A stretch of DNA of 29,693 nucleotides from a virus. Position 1 is the first letter of the stretch. Each line of letters begins with the position of its first letter. Positions 2,118 to 27,373 of this stretch are shown one piece after another. Below the pieces are notes generated by a model. It did no database searches. It had not been told where the DNA came from and saw only the letters and a program-made list of their open reading frames with translations. The stretch spans positions 1-29,693 of IMG/VR virus record IMGVR_UViG_3300008050_000202. One strand, given 5' to 3'. Position numbers and translations under genes: made by a program.

Positions 2118-2863
2118 GACAGGCGCTTCAACAAGTTCCGGACGGCGACATCCAAGCCGCCATCTGGGCTGTCGATCCCGAGGGACAGGGCCTCGACAAG
2201 CTCGGTATAGGTGTCGTGCTTGATCCGGCCTCGGATGTGCCCGATGGTCACGGCTACCAGCGACTCGCTCGGGTCGGTGAGCGTGTCGACGAGTTCTTCG
2301 GCACGTTCGGCAGCAGCCGCTTCGACCTCGTTCTTGTCGACCTCGGACGATGCCGCCGCGTTCATCACGGTGACCTCCGGATCCGTCGCGTAGGAGACGA
2401 GGTCCTCCAAGATGTCCTCGTCGAAGCCGGACAGGAGAAGATCGAGGTCGGTCCCTTCGACGACTTCGCTCAACTGGCCGAGGTAGTCGGACAGCTTCGT
2501 GTAGTCCCAATCGCCGTCGGCGTTGTTGTCGCGGAGAGCGACGAGACGCGCCTTCTCCTCGGGACCGTTGAAAAACGTGACGGGGATGCCCGACGCAGCG
2601 GAGCCGTCGTCGTGAACGAGTGCGACCCCGTCCTTCACCGCTTCCGAGATGACGGAGAAGCGCTGGTTGCCGCCGATGATGACGGTCTGTCCGTCCGGCG
2701 TCTTCCAGGCGAGGAGGGCACGGAACAAGCCCAACTCGTCGAGGGAGCGACGAAGCTCACGCCGCTCACGCTCCGAGAGCGACTGCCGGGGGTTGTCGTC
2801 GAAGCCAACGGCCTCCTTGGGGTCGATGTAGGCGTCGGCCTTGCAGACGGTGATCTTGTTCAT
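2114..2863 (-). CDS. ParB/DndB-like domain protein paired with DpdA
   Basis: This 249-residue protein carries a ParB/sulfiredoxin-type domain in its first 120 residues: NPR at the start of the domain (DDNPRQSLSERERRELRRSL), a conserved helix, then VIIGGNQR, which corresponds to the DGQ(H)R motif of ParB/DndB folds, and LRDNNADGDWDYTKL. The C-terminal half is acidic and helical and resembles nothing I know. ATG at 2863 overlaps the DpdA stop by 4 nt (ATGA), implying coupled translation. Bacterial dpd clusters also pair the transglycosylase DpdA with DpdB, which to my knowledge carries a related ParB/DndB-like domain. A role as the DpdA partner is therefore attractive. A plain transcription or partition factor is the alternative. 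The fold is fairly certain; the role is inferred. Confidence 0.75.
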   Translation of the reverse strand: MNKITVCKADAYIDPKEAVGFDDNPRQSLSERERRELRRSLDELGLFRALLAWKTPDGQTVIIGGNQRFSVISEAVKDGVALVHDDGSAASGIPVTFFNGPEEKARLVALRDNNADGDWDYTKLSDYLGQLSEVVEGTDLDLLLSGFDEDILEDLVSYATDPEVTVMNAAASSEVDKNEVEAAAAERAEELVDTLTDPSESLVAVTIGHIRGRIKHDTYTELVEALSLGIDSPDGGLDVAVRNLLKRLS

Positions 2864-3957
2864 GGTGCTGTCTCACTGGTGCGGTCGTAGATGTTCTTCC
2901 TGATAGCCGCCGACGCGCGAAGGGAGATCATCCCGTTCTCGGCGATGACGACATAGAGGATCCGAAGCGGCCCCTGGATGGACGCGAGCCAGTCGGTACC
3001 CGGCAACCCGACAGCCAGGAGGTTGTCGCGGAGCCGCGTCTGGTAGTCGACGTCGGTGCGCTTTGCGGCGGCTTTGTCTTGGATCGCGTTGTACCCCGTG
3101 ATGATCACGGCGGACGCTTCTGCTCGGGACATCCGGTTCCACCGGGACACGTTGATCCCGTAGCTCCGGAGGATGGGAAGCGCCCGATCGAGAGAAACGG
3201 TCGCGATGGTGTTGCCGATGCCCGTTTTCCGCTTGATGTGGTGGTACGGGTGTGGGAATCCGGGCGCTTTCTCGCGGGCACGCTCGTAGAGGGGCGCGAA
3301 CCCGAAGCGGGGGAGGCCCGCCCAAGACGAGGAATCTGCTGTGAGCCACGCAAGCTCGGTGTCCATCAGCATCCGGATGCTGGTCATCGCGAACCCGTGG
3401 CAGCCCGCTCCGTAGTGGAACAAGATGCGGGAGCACGCCCGGTAGAAGTCGTGCTGCGGCTTCGCCCGCTCGACCGCCGCCCCTGAGTGGTTGTCCATGC
3501 CGAGGGTTCCGAGGCCGACATAGGGCCAGTCCTTCGCGTACTCCTCCAGCATCTTGAACCCGTGGATCGGCTGGTGAACCCACAGCGGGTAGGCCCGATC
3601 CCCGATCACACGGACGATGCGAGCGAAGTTGCGTCGCATCTGCGGGGTGTTCCCGACATCGAGGTTCACGACGACGTCGATGAGCCCCTCGTCGGCGAGC
3701 CGCTGCGCGCACGCAAGGTACCGGCTCAGGTCGACCTCCAGGCCACGTCGCCGAATGGTGAACGCTCCGGAGTCGAACATGATGAACTTGCAGAACTTCC
3801 GCATCTGCCGAAGCAGCTTCACGGCGTTCTTGTAGTCGTTGACGAACAGCGCGTAGCTGATCAAGCCAGCCGTGTCCGGGTCCGGCACCCTGACGGGGGA
3901 CTCGACATCGTGAAGGATCTCGGTCCGGACGGAGTCGTGGTCGAAGGGATTACCCAT
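2860..3957 (-). CDS. dpdA: DpdA-like DNA guanine transglycosylase (TGT-type TIM barrel)
   Basis: TGT/DpdA enzymes swap guanine in a nucleic acid for a 7-deazaguanine base; phage DpdA members act on DNA. The 365-residue protein shows the DpdA pattern: FDSGAFT (Asp62, equivalent to DSGGFQ of TGT), NLDVG (Asp100), LWVHQP, VGLGTLG (the GGLAVG position of TGT) and a second acidic motif TADSSSW (Asp208), the place of the other catalytic Asp. The TGT zinc-binding C-terminal subdomain is not visible, as is usual for phage members. ATG at 3957 overlaps the radical SAM stop by 8 nt; its own stop overlaps the ParB-like start (ATGA). Together with FolE, QueD and QueE in the same operon this strongly indicates DNA, not tRNA, modification. 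The subfamily cannot be fixed without an alignment. Confidence 0.85.
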   Translation of the reverse strand: MGNPFDHDSVRTEILHDVESPVRVPDPDTAGLISYALFVNDYKNAVKLLRQMRKFCKFIMFDSGAFTIRRRGLEVDLSRYLACAQRLADEGLIDVVVNLDVGNTPQMRRNFARIVRVIGDRAYPLWVHQPIHGFKMLEEYAKDWPYVGLGTLGMDNHSGAAVERAKPQHDFYRACSRILFHYGAGCHGFAMTSIRMLMDTELAWLTADSSSWAGLPRFGFAPLYERAREKAPGFPHPYHHIKRKTGIGNTIATVSLDRALPILRSYGINVSRWNRMSRAEASAVIITGYNAIQDKAAAKRTDVDYQTRLRDNLLAVGLPGTDWLASIQGPLRILYVVIAENGMISLRASAAIRKNIYDRTSETAP

Positions 3958-4669
3958 CGTAGTTTCCCCAATCCTCCGGACCCTGGAAGACGAAGCCACG
4001 GCACTTGCCGCAGTCGACCTTCCCGCCGCCCTCGATGTCGACACAACAGAGCCCGAAGGAGCCGTCCCACAGGACGACCCGCCACGGCTTCCCGTCGGGG
4101 TAGCCGAGGTAGGAGCACCGACTGGAGCCGTCCTTTTCGACGAGCCCTTCGACGTGCCCCGCGTAGGACACAAGCTCTTTCTCGGGGGCATCGTCCGGCT
4201 TCCCGTCCTCTCCCGGCACCCAATGCTCGGTAGCGAGGAACCCATCGGGGATGTCGAACTCGCTGAGGCGGACCCCGAAGGGGTTGACGTGCAGCCGAAG
4301 CCACGCGAGCCCGAGGTCGAGGTACGCGTCCAGCTTCTCCTGCGTGAGCAGCTTGCCGTTGGTCGAGAACCCGACCCGCTTCCCACGTTCCGTCGCCATC
4401 CGGATGAAGTCGGGCAGGCGCTTGTGGAGCAGCGGCTCGGTGAAGTGGTGAAGGTGGAAGGACTCGTTCTCGACGACGTCGAGGACCACATCGAAGGTGT
4501 CCAGGGACATGAACCCCTTGGCCCGCTCGTGGTCCGGATGCGGGCAGTACGAGCACACGGCGTTGCAGTGGTTCGTGATGTCCACTTGGAACACGCGCAC
4601 CTTTTCCCCGGATGCCCTGAGCGAGAAGACGTCCGTTGCCGGCATCGAGAAGTCAGGCACGAGCATCAT
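3950..4669 (-). CDS. Radical SAM enzyme with SPASM/twitch-like C-terminal cysteines
   Basis: The 239-residue protein has the radical SAM cluster motif CX3CX2C (Cys35, Cys39, Cys42 in NHCNAVCSYCPHP). It also has the following barrel features TEPLLHKRLPDF and FSTNGKLL, and a C-terminal group of five more cysteines (185, 208, 209, 220, 223; RCSY ... GLCCVD ... DCGKC) that would bind an auxiliary Fe-S cluster, as in SPASM/twitch enzymes. It is not QueE, which is encoded separately. The ATG at 4669 (or 4666) lies inside the end of the upstream gene with AAGGA 8 nt before it, and the stop overlaps DpdA by 8 nt. Placement directly before DpdA suggests it modifies the 7-deazaguanine base or an attached group, but the reaction is unknown. 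Confidence 0.85.
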   Translation of the reverse strand: MMLVPDFSMPATDVFSLRASGEKVRVFQVDITNHCNAVCSYCPHPDHERAKGFMSLDTFDVVLDVVENESFHLHHFTEPLLHKRLPDFIRMATERGKRVGFSTNGKLLTQEKLDAYLDLGLAWLRLHVNPFGVRLSEFDIPDGFLATEHWVPGEDGKPDDAPEKELVSYAGHVEGLVEKDGSSRCSYLGYPDGKPWRVVLWDGSFGLCCVDIEGGGKVDCGKCRGFVFQGPEDWGNYDG

Positions 4670-5108
4670 CGGCGTAGTCCTTCGGACGTGTACGGAGCCC
4701 GGCGTGGATGGGGATCGTCGTGATGTCGAACGGGGTGCCGACCGAGATGTAGTCGCGCTTCTTGAATATGGACAAGTCCATCGTCGGTGCGCGGGCTACC
4801 AGCGTCAAAGGGGGCAAGGACGACCGGGCTTCCGTGAAGGGTACCACGTCCTCCCACAGCCGAGCGACGACGACCCGGAGAAGCGGGTAGTCGCCCATGA
4901 ACGACCGGAGCCAGTCCCAATCGTCGAACCGGTCGGAGCAGAAGATCTGCTTGACGCGTCCTTCGTCGACCATGAACCGGAGGTCGCTGTCGTCTTCGGC
5001 CGAGTCGACGAAGCCGGTGAGGAACCCGTGGCCTGGGTGTTCAACTTCGTGCCCGAACCAGATGCCGCCACGCTCTCCGACTCCGGGGTGCTTCTCTTCG
5101 CTCAGCAT
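4653..5108 (-). CDS. Unrecognised operon protein between glycosyltransferase and radical SAM genes
   Basis: The ATG at 5108 overlaps the glycosyltransferase stop by 7 nt. The 151-residue product is rich in aromatic and acidic residues (GGIWFGHEVEHPGHGFLTGFVDSAEDDSD, FDDWDWLRSFMGDYP) with several histidines near the N-terminus. It has no membrane segment, signal peptide or metal-binding cluster I can name. Its last 17 nt overlap the radical SAM start. The codon pattern is strongly GC-ending like its neighbours, so it is a real gene. I do not recognise it. Its position between a glycosyltransferase and a radical SAM enzyme makes it a candidate accessory protein of the modification pathway, and nothing more can be said from sequence. 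Confidence 0.6.
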   Translation of the reverse strand: MLSEEKHPGVGERGGIWFGHEVEHPGHGFLTGFVDSAEDDSDLRFMVDEGRVKQIFCSDRFDDWDWLRSFMGDYPLLRVVVARLWEDVVPFTEARSSLPPLTLVARAPTMDLSIFKKRDYISVGTPFDITTIPIHAGLRTRPKDYADDARA

Positions 5109-6118
5109 CGCTGCGCCTTCTGGAGGTAGCGGAGCATCTGCGAGATCGCGCCCGTCCACCGCATCGAGTCGTACCGGTAGCCGACGGGGGCTTGCAGCCG
5201 CTCGATCACCATGCCGGCGACGAAGTCGAGATCGCGCTCGTCGGGGTAGCGCTCGTCGAGAGGGAACGTCTCGCGGTACGAGAGCCGATCGGGGACGACA
5301 GGGTAGCACCCCAGCATCGCCGCCTCGACCATCCCGATCCCGAAGTTCTCCGCGACCGCGAAGGAGACGGCGACGCGCGAGTCGGCGAGGAGATCGTAGT
5401 AGCGCGGCTTCGGAAAATCGTGCTCGCGTGTCTTGACCCACTCGATCTTCGGCCCACGCCACCGGGCTTCGACCCGGTCGCGAAGGGACGCGAAGAGATG
5501 CGGCTGCTTGTCGTCGTGGAGGCGATGCGGGAACACGACCCGGTAGGAACGCATCGACCACTGACGGGACCGCCACGTGAACTCCGGATGAACCGGCAAG
5601 CCGGTGACGGCGATCTTCTCCGCACTGGCCCTGCCCGATTCGACGATCACGCTCTTGTGGTACTCGGTCGCGACGAACGCAAGATCGAGCGCGGCGAAGT
5701 ACCCTTGCTCGATTCCTTCGCACCACCGCTGCATGTTCACGCGGGACAGGAGGTCGTGGGTGTCCCACGACCCGGCGTGGAAGAAGCCGCCCATCTTGAA
5801 CTTCAGCCCAGCGACATCCCGCATGTACGCGAGGGCCGTGACCGTCGGGGTCCACGCGTCGAGGAACAAGACGAGGTCGTCGTCGTCGACCGCGCCAGCT
5901 TGCAGAAGCTCGACAAGGCGCATGGTCTGCGACGCTTTGTAGAAGTGCGTGTCGTAGCAGTCGAGGAAGTCGCCAACCTCGATGTCGCTCGCCGTCCGAT
6001 CGCCTTCGACTACTACTGGCTCGTACCCGAAGGACTGGACCTCTTCGGCGAACCACCGCCGCCATTGTCCCGTGTACCGGGCGTCGATCTCTTCGATCGG
6101 GACGAGAAAGACCTTCAC
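5102..6118 (-). CDS. GT-B-fold glycosyltransferase (GT4-like)
   Basis: The 338-residue protein shows two Rossmann-like halves. The N-terminal half opens with MKVFLVPIEE and includes DLVLFLDAW and DLAFVATEYHKSVIVES, then TGLPVHPEF at the domain junction, a common GT-B linker. The C-terminal half contains YDLLADSRVAVSFAVAENFGIGMVEAA (residues 240-266) and LGCYPVVPDRLSYRETFP. The E-x-F-G-I-x-x-x-E-A pattern is the nucleotide-sugar-binding motif of GT4 enzymes. ATG at 6118 overlaps the T-fold gene stop by 4 nt (ATGA). No membrane span is visible, so it is probably cytosolic. The sugar donor and acceptor are unknown. Lying between deazaguanine genes, it could glycosylate the modified base; surface-polysaccharide modification of the host is the alternative. 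Confidence 0.8.
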   Translation of the reverse strand: MKVFLVPIEEIDARYTGQWRRWFAEEVQSFGYEPVVVEGDRTASDIEVGDFLDCYDTHFYKASQTMRLVELLQAGAVDDDDLVLFLDAWTPTVTALAYMRDVAGLKFKMGGFFHAGSWDTHDLLSRVNMQRWCEGIEQGYFAALDLAFVATEYHKSVIVESGRASAEKIAVTGLPVHPEFTWRSRQWSMRSYRVVFPHRLHDDKQPHLFASLRDRVEARWRGPKIEWVKTREHDFPKPRYYDLLADSRVAVSFAVAENFGIGMVEAAMLGCYPVVPDRLSYRETFPLDERYPDERDLDFVAGMVIERLQAPVGYRYDSMRWTGAISQMLRYLQKAQRC

Positions 6119-6543
6119 GAGGCTACCTCTACGGTTGCGCCGTTCTCACCGTCCTCCCAGACGGATGCCGTCGCGGTCCATCCGGCCGGCAGAACTGGGA
6201 GGTTTTCGCCTTCCCGCCCGACCTCTTCCGGGTACGCGGGGAGGTCCAGATCGGGATCGTTTGCGGCGAACCTGATGGCGTGAGCAGCCAGGAGCATCGC
6301 CTGTTGCTCGCAGGACGCGCGCCCGAGATGGAGTCCCCACAACTCGGCGACGCCCTTGAGGTACCGCTGGAGCAGGATGAACTCGACGTCCCGATCTCCG
6401 TGGTCGACGGGAACGGTCACCTCCGCGTGGAAGGCATGGCGGTGCATCGACGAGAGGAACGCGACCTCTCGCGGGGCTTCGGGCCAGCAGTGGAGCCCCT
6501 CGTAGGCGAACCGGACGGTGACCGACTGGCGAACGACCCTCAT
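6115..6543 (-). CDS. T-fold QueD-like paralog of unknown reaction
   Basis: The 142-residue protein can be laid over QueD by eye: MHRHAFHAEVTV against HGHRYTAEVTV, DRDVEFILLQRYL against GRVIDYGVLKEIV, CEQQAMLLAAHAI against PTAENLAAFIARA, and ATASVWEDGENGATVEV against VHVRVYETPNCWADW. HGH thus becomes HRH. The CxxxHGH cysteine is missing (FLSSMHRH), so it cannot do classical QueD chemistry. ATG at 6543 overlaps the FolE stop (ATGA) and its stop overlaps the glycosyltransferase start (ATGA). It may be a deazaguanine-tailoring enzyme, for example a CDG decarboxylase, or a pterin-binding accessory protein. The homology is my visual inference; the reaction is open. Confidence 0.65.
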   Translation of the reverse strand: MRVVRQSVTVRFAYEGLHCWPEAPREVAFLSSMHRHAFHAEVTVPVDHGDRDVEFILLQRYLKGVAELWGLHLGRASCEQQAMLLAAHAIRFAANDPDLDLPAYPEEVGREGENLPVLPAGWTATASVWEDGENGATVEVAS

Positions 6544-7136
6544 CGGCAGCGGGCCATGTGATCCAACCACTCAGCCCGAGCCGACGACGACTCACGGAAG
6601 CGGCCATCGAACACGCACGTCGCCATCTTGACGCGCTTGTTGACGCCACGGCAAGCGACGCACAGGTGCTCGGCGATGATGCGGACTCCAACGGCAGACG
6701 GGTTGAGGTGCTCGGTGAGCGTGTCCGCGATCTGCTGGGTCATCCGTTCCTGCACCTGCAGACGCCGCGCGAACATGTCTACCAGCCGAGGGATCTTCGA
6801 CAGGCCGACGACCCGTCCCGACTTCCCCGGCAGGTAGCCCACGTCGGCGACGCCGCCGAAGGGCAGGAGGTGATGCTCGCACGTCGACCAGAACGGGATC
6901 GCTCCTACGGCGACAAGCTGATCGTAGCCACCGACTTCGTCGAAGCCGTCCGCGCCGTCGGAGGTCTTCAAGACCTCCGCAGGGTCGAGCCGGTACCCGG
7001 CAGTCATCTGCGCCCACGCCTTCGCGTACCGCTTCGGGGTCGACGCGAGCCCTTCGCGCTCGACGTCCTCCCCGATCGCGGAGAGGAGCATGGAGGCAGC
7101 GCGAGTCGCGGCCTTGTGGTCGAAGTCGTTGATCAC
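6540..7136 (-). CDS. folE: FolE, GTP cyclohydrolase I
   Basis: GTP cyclohydrolase I turns GTP into 7,8-dihydroneopterin triphosphate, the first step of 7-deazaguanine (and folate) synthesis. The 198-residue protein has every hallmark: EGLASTPKRYAKAW, zinc/active-site motif STCEHHLLPF (Cys86, His88, His89), GLSKIPRLVDMFARRLQVQERMTQQIADTL, and EHLCVACRGV with the second zinc Cys159. Length is normal for the core enzyme. GTG at 7136 overlaps the QueE stop by 4 nt (GTGA). A phage copy of this otherwise housekeeping enzyme usually serves to raise precursor flux for hypermodified DNA bases. The last residues (MARCR) are slightly extended compared with many homologs. Confidence 0.95.
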   Translation of the reverse strand: MINDFDHKAATRAASMLLSAIGEDVEREGLASTPKRYAKAWAQMTAGYRLDPAEVLKTSDGADGFDEVGGYDQLVAVGAIPFWSTCEHHLLPFGGVADVGYLPGKSGRVVGLSKIPRLVDMFARRLQVQERMTQQIADTLTEHLNPSAVGVRIIAEHLCVACRGVNKRVKMATCVFDGRFRESSSARAEWLDHMARCR

Positions 7137-7789
7137 GGCAGTCCCAGCATCTTGTGCGTTTGGACCGACACCCTCCAGCCGAGGGACGCGGCAAGTTTCA
7201 TGGTCATCGGCAGCGCGGCAGACCCGGTGTCCCCCCGGTCCATCGGCTGCAAGAAGCGGTGCTTGAAGTTCCACCCGGCCATCTCGTGGAGCGGCAGGGT
7301 CGTGGGGACGATGACCTTCAAGTCGTCGCCGTTCCGGACGACGATGTGCCCGATGGTCGCCGCATCCCCCATGAGGGGCTTCGGGCTCACGGTCACGTGA
7401 TCGAGGGCGTCGAGGATGTCCGCCTCGACCGACCCGTTGGTTTCGATCGCGACCTCGCACTCCAGTGCGACGTGAAGCTCGTTCACGAACACTTCGCCGT
7501 GACGGCGGCGAAGCTGGAGCGCGGGTTCGCCACCCGTCAAGACGATGAGCGGGTTCCGCATCCCTTCGGCGAGAGCAACGACTTGCTCGACGGCGAGGCC
7601 GGGGTCCATGCGTTCGCCCCCGACGAAGTCGGTGTCGCACCACTTCGCGCACTCCCCGAACCCTTCCCGCTTCTCGGGGTTGCCCGACCACAGGTTGCAT
7701 CCAGCAAGCCGGACGAAGATCGCGGGCGACCCGGCGCGTGAACCTTCGCCCTGGATGGTCCGGAAGATCTCTTTGACGCGGAGCCCCAT
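7133..7789 (-). CDS. queE: QueE, 7-carboxy-7-deazaguanine synthase (radical SAM)
   Basis: QueE rearranges 6-carboxytetrahydropterin into 7-carboxy-7-deazaguanine (CDG). The 218-residue protein starts with the typical VKEIFRTIQGEGSRAGSPAIFVRLAGCNLWSG and has CDTDF after the cluster, LTGGEPALQ, VAIETNGS and VTVSPKP. The three cluster cysteines are Cys31, Cys47 and Cys51, spaced CX15CX3C, one residue longer in both gaps than the CX14CX2C of many proteobacterial QueE enzymes. ATG at 7789 overlaps the stop of the small membrane protein (TGATG). The C-terminus has a tail (NFKHRFLQPMDRG ... ASLGWRVSVQTHKMLGLP) normal for the family. It supplies CDG to DpdA or to later steps; QueC is not encoded in the window. 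Confidence 0.94.
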   Translation of the reverse strand: MGLRVKEIFRTIQGEGSRAGSPAIFVRLAGCNLWSGNPEKREGFGECAKWCDTDFVGGERMDPGLAVEQVVALAEGMRNPLIVLTGGEPALQLRRRHGEVFVNELHVALECEVAIETNGSVEADILDALDHVTVSPKPLMGDAATIGHIVVRNGDDLKVIVPTTLPLHEMAGWNFKHRFLQPMDRGDTGSAALPMTMKLAASLGWRVSVQTHKMLGLP

Positions 7790-8092: not shown

Positions 8093-9223
8093 TCACGCGT
8101 CGAGGAAGCGCGTGATGTGCTTGACGATCTTGGCCGTCGGGGACTCCCCGTCATCGCAGACGTAGGGGGTCTGGTCGATGCGTGGACGATCGGGGTTGAT
8201 CGCCTTCCGGATGAGCTTCTGGAGGTCCAGCGGCTTCGTGACGACGTCTTCGGGCGAAGCCAGGGTCGCAAACCCGCGCGATAGCAACTGCCATCGCTCT
8301 GTCGAGGGCCGCACGATGATGGTCGGGATGCCGGCCCACGCCGCCTCCTCGGAGAGTCCGCCGCTGTCGGTGATGACGACGTCGGGCTTGCGCGCCGACG
8401 ACGAGAGGACGCGAACGACATCTCGGTAGGGGAAGGGTTCTTCGAACGACTGGTCTGAGAGCCACTTGCCAGGATCGCCGACCGAACGAAGTAAGGAAGG
8501 GTGAACCGGGATGCGGAGGTCCAGATCTGCTTCCGATACCGCGAAGGCGACGGCGGTGAGAAGCCGCGACGTCAAAGCCGGGTCCGCGAGTAGTTCGGTG
8601 CGGTGGAACGTCGCGAACGCCCACCGACCACCCGGCACCCACGCCGGAACGGCCCAAGACCGCCCATCCAAGCACCGTTCGTAGGCGTCGAAGGCGGTGT
8701 TGCCGGTGACGTAGATCTTCGACTTGACCTCGCCGAACTTCCGGAAGAACTCGGTGCGGAGCATCTCCGCTTCGAACTCGCCGGGGCAGAAGCACAACGC
8801 GCTCATGTGGTCCACGAGCTTCCGGATCTTCTCCTCGACTTGGTAGATGTCCCAAGAACGAAGCCCGGCTTCGACGTGAGCAACGGGAACGCCCATTCGC
8901 TCCCCGGCGAGTGCGCCTGCGAGGCAGGACGCAGTGTCGCCTTGCACGACAACGAGGTCCGGGTCGAACCGCGTCTCTTCGATGAAGTCCGAGATCCCGA
9001 TCGCCGCCTCGGCATGGGCATCCCCGACCTTCGACGTCGGCCACTCCAAGATGTGGTCGAAGTCTGGAAACCCCTCCCACGCCTTGACGTTCAACATCGC
9101 TTCGTCGGTGTGCTGGCCGGTCGCGAGGAAGCAGACGTCGAACCGAGCGCGCAGGTTCCCTACCAGGGGTGCGAGCTTGATGAACTCGGGGCGGGTGCCC
9201 GCTACGACGAGGATTCTACCCAT
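8093..9223 (-). CDS. wecB: UDP-N-acetylglucosamine 2-epimerase (WecB-like)
   Basis: This enzyme interconverts UDP-GlcNAc and UDP-ManNAc. The 376-residue protein has the family landmarks: GTRPEFIKLAPL (residues 9-20), LATGQHTDEAM, VVQGDTASCLAGAL (92-105), AHVEAGLRSWD (115-125), VTGNTAFDAYER, FATFHRTE, RIPVHPS, and ITDSGGLSEEAAWAGIPTIIVRPSTER near the C-terminus. Length is typical. In common WecB proteins the segment after HVEAGLRS reads MPEE(I/A)NR; here it is DIYQVEEKIRK, so the substrate may differ. ATG at 9223 overlaps the RmlC-like stop by 8 nt. It would supply an activated amino sugar for the glycosyltransferase in the same operon or for cell-surface change. The family is secure; the exact substrate is not. 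Confidence 0.88.
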   Translation of the reverse strand: MGRILVVAGTRPEFIKLAPLVGNLRARFDVCFLATGQHTDEAMLNVKAWEGFPDFDHILEWPTSKVGDAHAEAAIGISDFIEETRFDPDLVVVQGDTASCLAGALAGERMGVPVAHVEAGLRSWDIYQVEEKIRKLVDHMSALCFCPGEFEAEMLRTEFFRKFGEVKSKIYVTGNTAFDAYERCLDGRSWAVPAWVPGGRWAFATFHRTELLADPALTSRLLTAVAFAVSEADLDLRIPVHPSLLRSVGDPGKWLSDQSFEEPFPYRDVVRVLSSSARKPDVVITDSGGLSEEAAWAGIPTIIVRPSTERWQLLSRGFATLASPEDVVTKPLDLQKLIRKAINPDRPRIDQTPYVCDDGESPTAKIVKHITRFLDA

Positions 9224-9803
9224 CGACCACCTTCCTCCAGTCGTAGGGCGGGAGCCCGGTCGCCGGGGCAACCGATGGGTCCAACCGGTACTCGTCGGTG
9301 CCGTCGTACTCGTGCGTGACGGCATTGAGGATCTTCGACCCGTCGCGGAACGAGATCCAGCCATGCGCGACCATCGGGGGCACGAGCACCAACTTCGGTG
9401 CGCGGGCGTCCAAGGTGAACTCCCGGTACTGATGCTGCGTGCGCGACAACGGTCGAAGGTCGCACAGCACGAGGCGAAGCCGGCCCGCGAGGCAAACAAA
9501 CCTGTCTGTCTGGACCCGGTGCAGATGCCACCCCTTGATGACCCCCCGGTCCGTCTCAGAGACGTAGACTTGGTTGACGCCGTCGTCGGGTTCCGACTTC
9601 GGCCAGCGGTCGTTGCCGCGCAGCCGGAACGACCACGACCCCCGAAACAACTCGATCAGCGAGCCGCGATCGTCGACGTTGAGGTTGAGGGTCCGGACGT
9701 ACACGCCCGGCATGTCTGGCTCGCCATCGAACCCAGGCATGTCCTCGACCCACGGCTCGGGAGCCTCGTTGAGCCGCGTCCAGCCGTCGCGGAGGTCATC
9801 CAT
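9216..9803 (-). CDS. RmlC-like cupin, dTDP-4-dehydrorhamnose 3,5-epimerase family
   Basis: RmlC-type enzymes epimerise dTDP-4-keto sugars. The 195-residue protein shows the family layout: YVRTLNLNVDDRGSLIELFR, QVYVSETDRGVIKGWHLHRVQTDRF (usual VLRGLHYQ region, candidate catalytic His93), LAGRLRLVLCDLR, FTLDARAPKLVLVPPMVAHGW, and VTHEYDGTDEYRLDP near the end. The lysine that normally follows in the RmlC active site (QxxKLVR) is not evident; the segment reads TDRF. A related cupin activity (3,4-ketoisomerase of FdtA type, also having a GWHxHK region) is therefore possible. Start ATG 9803 overlaps the previous stop by 8 nt. No RmlA, RmlB or RmlD lies nearby, so it would act on a host sugar nucleotide. 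Confidence 0.78.
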   Translation of the reverse strand: MDDLRDGWTRLNEAPEPWVEDMPGFDGEPDMPGVYVRTLNLNVDDRGSLIELFRGSWSFRLRGNDRWPKSEPDDGVNQVYVSETDRGVIKGWHLHRVQTDRFVCLAGRLRLVLCDLRPLSRTQHQYREFTLDARAPKLVLVPPMVAHGWISFRDGSKILNAVTHEYDGTDEYRLDPSVAPATGLPPYDWRKVVDG

Positions 9804-10167
9804 CCTTCTTGAACGTCTCGTCTCGTTGTTCCAGCTTCCGGACGCCGTCCGGATGGAAGTTGTCGGCATGTTGCGGGTGCGCCTTCTGGACATGATGAAG
9901 GCGCTTGTCGGGACGCGAGCCCAGGACCACGACCTCGGTAGGGGAGAGCGCCGTGCGGAGCCCTTCCTCCCACCAGAACGGGATGATCCGGAGGCCGGGG
10001 TTCTCCTTCTTCGCGCGCTTCTCAGCTTGTCGATACCAGTCGACTTGGGCGCGCGTCATGTCGTGGATGGACATCACTTCGACCTGCGTCCCTTCGGGGA
10101 TCGTGATCATCGTGTTGTCCTTCCACGACCGACAGAAGGTCATCGGCTTCCGGATCTGCGCCTTCAC
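9796..10167 (-). CDS. Unrecognised small basic operon protein (123 aa)
   Basis: GTG at 10167 forms a GTGA overlap with the upstream stop and has GAGG 8 nt upstream. The 123-residue product starts with a beta-strand pair (KPMTFCRSWKDNTMITIPEGTQVEVM) and has a basic helix with Trp/Tyr (RAQVDWYRQAEKRAKKEN). It ends with several histidines and lysines (RLHHVQKAHPQHADNFHPDG). No domain is recognised. The short first part resembles a small beta-barrel, and the histidine-rich tail could bind metal or nucleic acid, but this is speculation. It lies just ahead of the sugar-epimerase genes, with the next start overlapping by 8 nt, so it is coexpressed with the modification operon. Confidence 0.55.
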   Translation of the reverse strand: MKAQIRKPMTFCRSWKDNTMITIPEGTQVEVMSIHDMTRAQVDWYRQAEKRAKKENPGLRIIPFWWEEGLRTALSPTEVVVLGSRPDKRLHHVQKAHPQHADNFHPDGVRKLEQRDETFKKDG

Positions 10168-23977: not shown

Positions 23978-24005
23978 TCTGGTGGACAGAAGAACGGAGA
24001 GCCAG

Positions 24006-25151
24006 ATGACCCACCAGATGCCCCTCGACCGACTGCTCGCTATCGAAGCGGAGTTGAACGCCTGCTTCTACGAGCGCGCGAGCGAGATCCGCTCGCTGCT
24101 CGTCGCCATCAGCGCGGAGGAGCACGTCCTCCTGCTCGGCCCTCCGGGTACGGGCAAGAGCGCGCTCGCCAAGGCGTTCTCCGACGCCCTCGGCGTGAGC
24201 AACTTCTTCCAGGTGCTGATGACGCGCTTCTCGACCCCGGAAGAGGTGTTCGGTCCGCTGTCGCTCTCCAAGCTGGAGGAGGACAAGTTCGTCCGCGTGA
24301 CCGACCGCTACCTCCCCGCCGCCGAGTTCGCGTTCCTCGACGAGGTGTTCAAGGCCAACGGCCCCATCCTCAACGCGATGCTGACGGTCCTCAACGAGCG
24401 CGAGTTCGACAACGATGGTCGGGTCGACTGCCCCCTGCAGATGGCGATCGGCTGCTCCAACGAGACGCCGCCGTCGAACGAGGACATCTCCCTGGACGCG
24501 CTCTACGACCGCTTCGTCCTGCGCCACTGGGTGTCGTACATCAAGGACCGTGACGCGCTCATGTCCCTCGGCCGCTCGTCCGGCAAGCTGGGCACGTCCA
24601 CCGTCTTGCAGCCGGGCGACCTCGACGCGATCCGCGATGACGTCGCGAAGGTCGACATGCCCGACTCGGTGCTGGAGGCGATCCTCGACATCATGGACGA
24701 CCTCCGACGCAACCACGGCATCGAGATCAGCGACCGGCGCTTCTTGAAGCTGATCAAGCTGACCCGCGCCAACGCGTACCTCAACGGGCGCAACACGGCG
24801 AGCAAGCACGACCTCATGGTCCTCGCCAACGCGATGTGGGACGAGCCCGAGGATGCGGGGACCGTCAACGGCGTCGTCGCGTCGCACGTGAGTGCCGCGC
24901 TGGAGCAGGCCCTCAAGCTGATGGACGCGGCTACCGAGATCTACTCGGCCCTGGACCTCCAGTCGGTCGAGGCCTCCGACGCGCCCCGGCTCGCCGACGC
25001 CAACGACCAGTTGGAGCAGGTGCTCCGACAATTGTCCGGCTTGACCGACAAGGACCTCACCGCCGACGTCGTATCGAAGGTGACCCGGATGAAGAAGAGC
25101 ACCGCCCGCGCCGCCCGCCGCTGCCTCTCCATCGGGATGTCGGTGTTCTAG
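24006..25151 (+). CDS. MoxR-family AAA+ ATPase
   Basis: MoxR ATPases act as chaperones that pair with VWA proteins. The 381-residue protein has Walker A GPPGTGKS (residues 45-52), TRFSTPEEVFGPLSL, the Walker B FAFLDEVFKANGP (108-120), sensor MAIGCSNETPPSNED and the arginine/lid region LYDRFVLRHW. The C-terminal domain is helical with many Asp/Glu (DAVLEAILDIMDD-like), typical for the family. ATG at 24006 is chosen over GTG 23982 because GGAG is correctly spaced. The gene ends at TAG 25149-25151. After this TAG the same frame stays open for 26 more codons to TGA 25230-25232 and looks coding. The partner VWA gene lies at 25943. The substrate is unknown. Confidence 0.88.
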   Translation: MTHQMPLDRLLAIEAELNACFYERASEIRSLLVAISAEEHVLLLGPPGTGKSALAKAFSDALGVSNFFQVLMTRFSTPEEVFGPLSLSKLEEDKFVRVTDRYLPAAEFAFLDEVFKANGPILNAMLTVLNEREFDNDGRVDCPLQMAIGCSNETPPSNEDISLDALYDRFVLRHWVSYIKDRDALMSLGRSSGKLGTSTVLQPGDLDAIRDDVAKVDMPDSVLEAILDIMDDLRRNHGIEISDRRFLKLIKLTRANAYLNGRNTASKHDLMVLANAMWDEPEDAGTVNGVVASHVSAALEQALKLMDAATEIYSALDLQSVEASDAPRLADANDQLEQVLRQLSGLTDKDLTADVVSKVTRMKKSTARAARRCLSIGMSVF

Positions 25152-25515: not shown

Positions 25516-25859
25516 TGGAGGACCGTGCGCCGACGATCGGAGAGACGATCGAAGCGATGACCCCCGGCACCGCCTTCGGGTTCTCCATCGCGATGTTCCC
25601 GATCGAGTTGAGCTTTGCCCTCTGGCGAGCGTTCGCGGTCTGGAAGGCGTGGACGTGGCTCGCCGAGCCGGCGGGTGCCCCGAACATCGCCTTTGGTGTC
25701 TTCTTCGGGCTCTACTACGTCCTAAGCGTCATGCTCACCGGGACTGCCGACACCCTCGCTACGGAAAGACTGACATTCAGCGCATGGATCAGTCACCGAC
25801 TGGCGTCACCGTTGATGGTCCTCATCACGGCGGCTTTGATCGAGTGGATGGTCTACTGA
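25515..25859 (+). CDS. Small membrane protein (114 aa) next to MoxR/VWA genes
   Basis: ATG at 25515 overlaps the previous TGA (TGATG). The 114-residue product has three hydrophobic stretches: residues 21-47 (AFGFSIAMFPIELSFALWRAF), 59-77 (IAFGVFFGLYYVLSVML) and a C-terminal one (LASPLMVLITAALIEWMVY). With three spans the N- and C-termini would sit on opposite faces. A charged segment separates the last two spans. No signal peptide. The family is not known. It is placed between the MoxR-like ATPase and the VWA protein, where it could anchor them to the membrane, as MoxR systems often work on membrane or cell-envelope complexes. That is an inference from context. Confidence 0.65.
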   Translation: MEDRAPTIGETIEAMTPGTAFGFSIAMFPIELSFALWRAFAVWKAWTWLAEPAGAPNIAFGVFFGLYYVLSVMLTGTADTLATERLTFSAWISHRLASPLMVLITAALIEWMVY

Positions 25860-25890
25860 AAAAAAGTCGAGAAGAACCCCGTTGTCGACG

Positions 25891-25919
25891 TAGACCTATA
25901 ACGGGGTTCGCGGTACTAT
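25891..25919 (+). promoter_or_regulatory. Rightward promoter ahead of the VWA gene
   Basis: TAGACC (25891-25896), 17-nt spacer including AACGG, then TACTAT (25914-25919). Ribosome site GGAAGGAAGGAG lies 6 nt further on and the ATG is 25943. A run of seven A's (TGAAAAAAAG) follows the stop of the previous gene. Confidence 0.6.
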
Positions 25920-25942
25920 TCGGAGGAAGGAAGGAGAATCCG

Positions 25943-27373
25943 ATGCGCCCGAAGCGACAGAAGCGCCACAACTACGCCACCGGCCGGGTCAAGGCCCAAG
26001 CGTTCACGGCAACCCGCTGGCAGCGATTCCTCTACGAGCAGCGCGTGGAGATCCCCAACTCGGAGATCCAGAAGGCGCGCAACAAGCTCGGACGTCGCCT
26101 CGCTGACGTCGGGATGCACGACGGGAAGGTGCGGGACTGCCGGAACGAGGCCGACCTGTTCGCGGGCGAGGTCTACTCCCGCCTCTACGATTCCCCCGAA
26201 GCCCTCACGAGCGCGACCGTCGAATGGGCGGGCGTCGCCCACGACGCGCTGGAAACGACGACCGAGTTCAAGTCCCTGTCCGAGCAGGTCGACGGCGACC
26301 CCGACATGGCCGCCATCGCTACCGCGAAGATCGTGGACAAGGTGTCGGACATGGCCGAGAAGCTGGCGAATGGGATGCCGGACAACTCTCCGGTCGACAT
26401 CGAAGACGTCGCCCGTTCCGCGATGCGTCAGGCGTGTCGCGAAGCGACGGGGGACGTCGCCGAGGCCATTGGCCTCCTCGGCGGGCTCGCGCCGGGCCTC
26501 GCTGCCGCGCCTCCCGCGCACGAGCAGCACGACCCTCGCCGGATGCGCCTCGCGCAGATGCTCATCGACAACGAGGAGCTTCGGAACATCCTTCGCTTGG
26601 TCGGTAAGTTCACGCGCATCGCCACGTCGACCCGCAAGAAGCGCGGCGACAACGTTCGCGAGGAGGTCGTCGACATCGAGCGCGGGAACGACCTCGCGCG
26701 GGCGCTCCCGGTGGAGTTGGCGAAGCTCCGACACCCCAAGCTCCGGACCCTGTTCTTCAAGAACTACATCGAGCGGTCCCTCGTCCAGTACCAGTTGGGC
26801 GGCAAGGAGCCCGTCGGTCGCGGCGCGATGGTCTGCCTCCTCGACGAGTCCGGTTCCATGCACGGCGAGCCGTCGCAGTGGGCGCGGGCCGTCGGCATCG
26901 CCATGACCCTCATCGGGAACAAGGAGAACCGGGCCGTGACGGTGATGGGATTCGATACCCGCGTCAAGACGGCCTTCCGCCTCGACGAAAAGGGCCGGGC
27001 GTGGTCGATGAACCCGCACACGCTGGAGGTCAAGTCGGAGATCGGCGACGTCACCGACATGATCCTCGCGATCTCGGAGCAGGGGTGCGGCGGGGGCACG
27101 TCCTTCGACGGTCCCGTCACCGCCGCGATCGACTTCACGCAGATGCCGGGAGGCGATGCCGACGCCGACTTCGTGCTCGTCACCGACGGGCACGCGTCCC
27201 TGAGCGACCACGTCGCCGAGCGTATCCAAACCCTCCGCGAAGAGAAGGGGCTCCGGGTCTTCGGCATCACGATCAACGGCGGCGAGGTGACCCGCGCCGT
27301 CAAGCGCCTCTGCGACGAGACGACCGACATCGCCATGCACGGCATCGATTCCGTCGGAGCGACCCTCCCGTGA
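25943..27373 (+). CDS. VWA-domain protein (CobT/ViaA-like), partner of MoxR ATPase
   Basis: The 476-residue protein has an N-terminal helical region (to about 290) rich in Arg/Ala/Glu and a C-terminal von Willebrand A domain with an intact MIDAS site. DESGSM (Asp301, Ser303, Ser305) follows VCLL; Thr386 lies in GCGGGTSFDG; Asp415 lies in FVLVTDGHASLSD. Such proteins bind a divalent metal ion and work with MoxR-type ATPases. The start at 25943 follows GGAAGGAAGGAG; a longer frame upstream is a shadow of the membrane gene. The GTG of an 11-codon frame overlaps its TGA. Known VWA/MoxR pairs assemble or remodel protein complexes; the phage target is not evident from this sequence. Confidence 0.88.
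   Translation: MRPKRQKRHNYATGRVKAQAFTATRWQRFLYEQRVEIPNSEIQKARNKLGRRLADVGMHDGKVRDCRNEADLFAGEVYSRLYDSPEALTSATVEWAGVAHDALETTTEFKSLSEQVDGDPDMAAIATAKIVDKVSDMAEKLANGMPDNSPVDIEDVARSAMRQACREATGDVAEAIGLLGGLAPGLAAAPPAHEQHDPRRMRLAQMLIDNEELRNILRLVGKFTRIATSTRKKRGDNVREEVVDIERGNDLARALPVELAKLRHPKLRTLFFKNYIERSLVQYQLGGKEPVGRGAMVCLLDESGSMHGEPSQWARAVGIAMTLIGNKENRAVTVMGFDTRVKTAFRLDEKGRAWSMNPHTLEVKSEIGDVTDMILAISEQGCGGGTSFDGPVTAAIDFTQMPGGDADADFVLVTDGHASLSDHVAERIQTLREEKGLRVFGITINGGEVTRAVKRLCDETTDIAMHGIDSVGATLP

Follow-up and report, generated by a model that had tools for sequence, protein, structure and literature searches.

QueD enzymes cleave side-chain bonds beside the pterin at a zinc site. The QueD/PTPS proteins (PF01242; 4ntk and PH0634, 2dj6) are the closest described relatives of the viral family considered here, with which they have in common the T-fold, a His triad, a base-anchoring Glu and an operon with folE and queE. 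The QueF and QueF-like enzymes also share with it the T-fold and, presumably, an action on a 7-deazaguanine late in the pathway, but their substrate is preQ0, for which QueC is required, and their catalytic Cys forms a thioimide. As for phage DNA, Cui et al. in 2023 (NAR 51:9214) reportedly found 7-deazaguanine and 7-carboxy-7-deazaguanine in it, and they are said to have predicted a phage CDG decarboxylase, DpdL, which would make 7-deazaguanine from CDG. Cellulophaga phage phiST, which carries a member of the family, may, we assume, be among the phages of that work.

The stretch of viral DNA analysed here (the window, 29,693 nucleotides) contains one gene of this kind at 6115-6543, which encodes a QueD-like T-fold protein of 142 aa belonging to the PHROG 17812 family. 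The coordinates given for it in the earlier note are exact, and its strand, left unstated there, is the minus one (start codon ATG at 6543, stop codon at 6117-6115). The gene does lie directly after folE and before a glycosyltransferase gene, as the note had claimed. Its start overlaps the folE stop codon as ATGA (6543-6540), and its stop codon overlaps the GTG of the glycosyltransferase gene as GTGA (6118-6115), so the three genes look translationally coupled. A chance open reading frame is ruled out by the conservation and the gene overlaps.

On the minus strand, the order is queE, folE, the T-fold gene, the glycosyltransferase gene, a 151-aa ORF, a radical SAM gene, the DpdA-like gene, a ParB-like gene and queD. 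The QueE-like radical SAM enzyme, which makes CDG, is encoded at 7133-7789 (phrog_2076, 1.8e-31) and the GTP cyclohydrolase I FolE at 6540-7136 (PF01227, E=3e-60; GTG start assigned from the queE overlap). The glycosyltransferase at 5102-6118 is of the GT4 type, and its homologues adjoin the family elsewhere. Between it and DpdA are the 151-aa ORF with no family match (4653-5108) and the second radical SAM protein (3950-4669; PF04055, 1e-10), which is not QueE and has only a weak match to phrog_2076. The DpdA-like DNA guanine transglycosylase (2860-3957; phrog_887, 2e-21) has a putative ATG start at 3957, and the true QueD/PTPS with the motif CRSVHGH (1671-2117; PF01242, 2e-33; phrog_2389, 1e-33) a putative GTG start. 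QueC is absent from the 29.7-kb window, which is a fragment of a phage genome. On the plus strand, an AAA+ ATPase (23982-25151) and a VWA-domain protein (25649-27373) are adjacent, and by eye they look like the MoxR/CobS and CobT-like pairs that large phages encode.

The sole PHROG match of the T-fold protein is 17812, annotated as of unknown function, and the single sequence has no match in Pfam, NCBIfam or the PDB sequences. PHROG 17812 was matched by all 18 members of the family alignment A1 (best 3.9e-69), while only 1 of 46 family members matched the PTPS family (E 0.11), below the Pfam and NCBIfam thresholds. By tblastn, 27 phage records were found, and the identical 27 were obtained with a distant family member as the query; a motif scan of viral contigs confirmed at least 594 T-fold family loci. 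In contrast, a scan for close relatives across 84,980 genomes of bacteria and archaea yielded seven loci, all on MAG contigs. These are probably viral contigs in MAG bins, and the family is in effect viral. With the phiST protein as the scan query, no relatives were found. The pair of T-fold and glycosyltransferase genes occurs in loci L106-L112, MAG-binned contigs (Nitrosarchaeum and Rickettsiales bins among them) that are probably viral. Fusions of the T-fold domain to other domains occur as well, with N-terminal extensions in Bakedbeans and MA9V-3 (L011, 6221-7372, and L013, 6461-7342, respectively), and two longer predicted viral proteins in BFVD, A0A8S5V119 and A0A6J5LEZ6 (300 and 459 aa), match the T-fold model.

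The AlphaFold2 model of the protein, built with 46 homologues (pLDDT 89.8, pTM 0.86), arranges its secondary-structure elements as a T-fold subunit does (strand-strand-helix-helix-strand-strand). Its top match among solved structures is E. coli QueD 4ntk (Z 11.6, 2.4 Å over 111 residues, 16% identity), followed by other PTPS proteins, and thus the top solved matches are all QueD/PTPS. Dihydroneopterin aldolase, QueF-like (Z 9.1), urate oxidase and GTP cyclohydrolase, all of them T-fold proteins, are found lower down. The family profile, when compared with the PDB, has its best match in the archaeal PTPS PH0634 of Pyrococcus (2dj6, E=0.0058), end to end and with the His and Glu residues in register, and hhalign aligns the family with QueD at 88% (E=3e-6), whereas the controls FolE, QueE, the glycosyltransferase and DpdX3 give 0.11-0.62. 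The earlier note had proposed a QueD-like T-fold by eye, and the predicted fold, set against that of QueD, is indeed a T-fold. The QueF-like match is weaker than that to QueD.

Residue invariance was counted over 61 aligned family members, which are 32-52% identical to the query. H18, H34 and H36, which correspond to the zinc histidines H16, H31 and H33 of QueD and are in register with PH0634, are invariant in all 61 and presumably form a zinc-type metal site, judging from the sequence. Likewise, E130, the counterpart of the base-anchoring E110 of QueD, is invariant (61/61) and aligned with the PTPS Glu. Unlike QueD/PTPS, however, the family lacks the Cys of CxxxHGH: the position of the catalytic C27 of QueD is L30 in 61/61. 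The Asp-His dyad of QueD (D70, H71) is missing too, as no D-H pair is conserved in the stretch of alignment A1 that runs from helix 1 to the SCE motif. Consequently, the residue tests, with the catalytic Cys and the dyad gone, rule out that the protein is a true QueD, which is in fact encoded in addition to it. Instead, the family has new invariants relative to QueD, namely R51, E54, S77, C78 and E79, and S77-C78-E79 (SCE) takes the place of the PTSE motif of QueD. The invariant C78 might recall the Cys of QueF, a correspondence that is only putative. The HRH in place of HGH described in the note is present in the window protein (MHRHAFH, against LHGH in QueD), but it is not a family invariant, since this Arg, although usual, gives way to HFH in 2 of 61 sequences. 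Similarly, the loss of the QueD cysteine holds throughout, but the family has an invariant Cys of its own. The note mentions neither the invariant Cys, Arg and Glu nor the pairing, seen across the family, with either a glycosyltransferase or a TGT-like protein.

For the pathway context, 13 complete genomes of distinct phages with a T-fold family member were each searched whole. FolE and QueE are present in 12 of the 13 and QueD in 11, and all three occur together in the window and in 11/13 carrier genomes; a DpdA or TGT-like gene was detected in some of these, not all. The membership in the deazaguanine pathway suggested by the note is in agreement with these counts, and none of the 13 complete carrier genomes is devoid of all deazaguanine genes. 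At 99 T-fold loci, many of which are cut by contig ends, FolE was found 62 times, QueE 54 times and QueD 48 times. QueC, in contrast, was above the cut-off in one carrier genome only, that of Vibrio phage D479, whose QueC-like protein has a CxxCxxC cluster, lies 100 kb from the deazaguanine cluster and adjoins a nicotinamide phosphoribosyltransferase; D479 has the T-fold protein and no detectable QueD (PF01242). Among 47 further viral contigs, a single one has a weak QueC match above the cut-off, while as many as 303 phage records match QueC. For comparison, 65 DpdA phages with FolE, QueD and QueE have been described, of which two are without QueC (Hutinet 2019, PMC6884629). A Fisher test of QueC absence in the carrier genomes versus these phages gave 1e-10, a value that merely describes the contrast, because related phages are treated as independent. 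The pathway ends at CDG in these viruses, since FolE, QueD and QueE are present and QueC is absent; that is, the family is tied to CDG-making viruses without the conversion of CDG to preQ0. What the computations show is the gene itself, its fold, its pattern of residues and its co-occurrence with FolE, QueD, QueE and DpdA or TGT-like proteins without QueC.

The sole exception among the carriers is Faecalibacterium phage Roos, the genome of which lacks FolE, QueD and QueE altogether. At its locus (L014, 6297-8893), a ParB-like gene is accompanied by the T-fold gene, which DpdA directly adjoins, and by the gene of a Vut_1 (YhhQ-type) transporter. As the synthesis genes are absent, the host or the medium would have to supply the substrate, possibly preQ0 or preQ1 in the place of CDG. 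In the whole Roos record, the DpdA profile match spans a TAG codon. The PA5oct and BUCT-ZZ01 clusters contain xanthine-guanine-type phosphoribosyltransferase-like genes (L018, 8178-8612, and L019, 2441-2902, respectively), the products of which might feed free 7-deazaguanine into nucleotides.

Based on the above, the T-fold protein is almost certainly an enzyme of the deazaguanine pathway. It probably acts on the next base, CDG, because it is derived from QueD, has kept the metal- and base-binding residues and has lost those that make CPH4. We favour, at a probability of roughly 55%, the reading that it decarboxylates CDG to 7-deazaguanine in QueC-less pathways. It would thus be a zinc-type T-fold enzyme of QueD/PTPS origin whose reaction directly follows that of QueE. 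E130 would anchor the guanine edge of CDG, and the 7-substituent would be placed at the metal site of H18, H34 and H36. Removal of the 7-carboxylate would then yield 7-deazaguanine (DG), the base that a DpdA-type transglycosylase would put into DNA. The binding of a metal, the CDG substrate, its decarboxylation, the roles of R51, E54 and C78 and DG as a DNA base are what we infer. A C-C cleavage beside the base suits the T-fold protein, since QueD enzymes cleave the side chain there, and the absence of QueC both agrees with and favours the decarboxylation of CDG. On the other hand, 7-deazaguanine offers no evident acceptor group to the glycosyltransferase that is present at two thirds of the loci. 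Roos, without FolE, QueD and QueE, and D479, with a QueC-like protein and without QueD, also count against this explanation.

By role and context, and not by sequence, we take the family to be perhaps DpdL, for the context that would require DpdL, i.e., FolE, QueD and QueE without QueC, is that of the T-fold family. If so, the step is a published prediction, and the window gene is a new diverged member. We know of no glycosyltransferase pairing in the DpdL paper or elsewhere in known work.

This partner deserves consideration in its own right. A GT4-type glycosyltransferase homologous to that of the window is encoded at 64 of the 99 loci, always on the same strand and usually within a few hundred bases, as well as at all eight additional T-fold loci, and the AlphaFold2 model of the window protein (pLDDT 88.7) has a GT-B fold, with Z of 24-27 to GT4 retaining enzymes. 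Another 29 of the 99 loci have a TGT-like, phrog_20335-like protein (DpdX3), again always on the same strand, and the two are never both present at one locus. DpdX3 and the window DpdA contain the motifs LDNSAFE, HFLG and SWDSSS in the same order; the label TGT-like comes from these shared motifs and from an hhalign match to the window DpdA with E 0.002 and a probability of only 13%, and the DpdX3 profile has no match in the PDB. Examples of such TGT/DpdA-like genes in the place of the glycosyltransferase gene are L010 7695-8552, L017 7801-8580, L012 9077-10345, L020 7417-8289 and L013 7815-8609, and the phrog_20335-like proteins, which carry no annotation, could be a further DpdA subfamily. 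Other DpdA-type genes (phrog_887 and phrog_10773, the latter linked to DpdA by a single annotation) were found at 16/99 loci.

Then, could the T-fold enzyme act on CDG or a CDG-like base without simple decarboxylation, with GT4 later decorating the base, so that a sugar-bearing 7-deazaguanine is present in DNA? Both the frequency and the confirmed fold of the same-strand GT4 speak for it, as do the nucleotide-sugar genes that lie a short way upstream of the window's queE gene. The latter encode, in the same direction, a UDP-GlcNAc 2-epimerase (8093-9223; PF02350, 2e-58) and a dTDP-4-dehydrorhamnose 3,5-epimerase-like protein (9216-9893; PF00908, 3.6e-18; phrog_8784, 2e-9), and the pair (8093-9893, minus strand) might supply the sugar of the glycosyltransferase. 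However, neither these genes nor the second radical SAM gene and the 151-aa ORF of the window were found at the other T-fold loci, and the glycosyltransferase may modify another base or other target. Moreover, at the 29 loci with the TGT-like protein in its place the invariant residues of the T-fold protein are unchanged; therefore, its chemistry should not depend on the glycosyltransferase. We consider this alternative unlikely, although it is the best of those weighed here. It is equally doubtful that the T-fold family and GT4 form a module, found in the majority of carrier viruses, that makes and installs glycosylated 7-deazaguanine, the viruses with TGT-like proteins keeping the plain base. 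Among the abstracts and titles listed by a literature search there is no report of glycosylated 7-deazaguanine in phage DNA, and to our knowledge such a hypermodification at guanine position 7 has not been described so far.

It is less probable still that the T-fold protein is a non-catalytic carrier or adaptor, which passes CDG or 7-deazaguanine to DpdA. Such a role would be consistent with the protein having lost both the catalytic Cys of QueD and its Asp-His dyad, and with the gene being often beside a DpdA or TGT-like gene, as in Roos, whose copy directly adjoins DpdA. Nevertheless, the three zinc-type His residues together with R51, E54, S77, C78 and E79 are invariant in 61 sequences of such low identity, for which a catalytic site is to be expected rather than a carrier. 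Finally, a pterin enzyme of the QueD type with a place ahead of QueE in the pathway, i.e., a diverged or alternative CPH4 synthase, would account for the QueD/PTPS fold and metal residues and for D479 having no PF01242 match, but it is very improbable given the separate QueD in the window and in 11/13 phage genomes and the absent catalytic Cys and dyad.

With the decarboxylation of CDG as the preferred reading, the hundreds of proteins of a PHROG without assigned function can now be given a fold, a predicted active site and, as the probable step in place of QueC in phages that stop at CDG, a position in a pathway. Specific proteins and phage isolates are now at hand for a direct test of the predicted CDG decarboxylase. 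In addition, the conserved glycosyltransferase partner implies that the modified base in the DNA of these viruses may exceed plain 7-deazaguanine in complexity.
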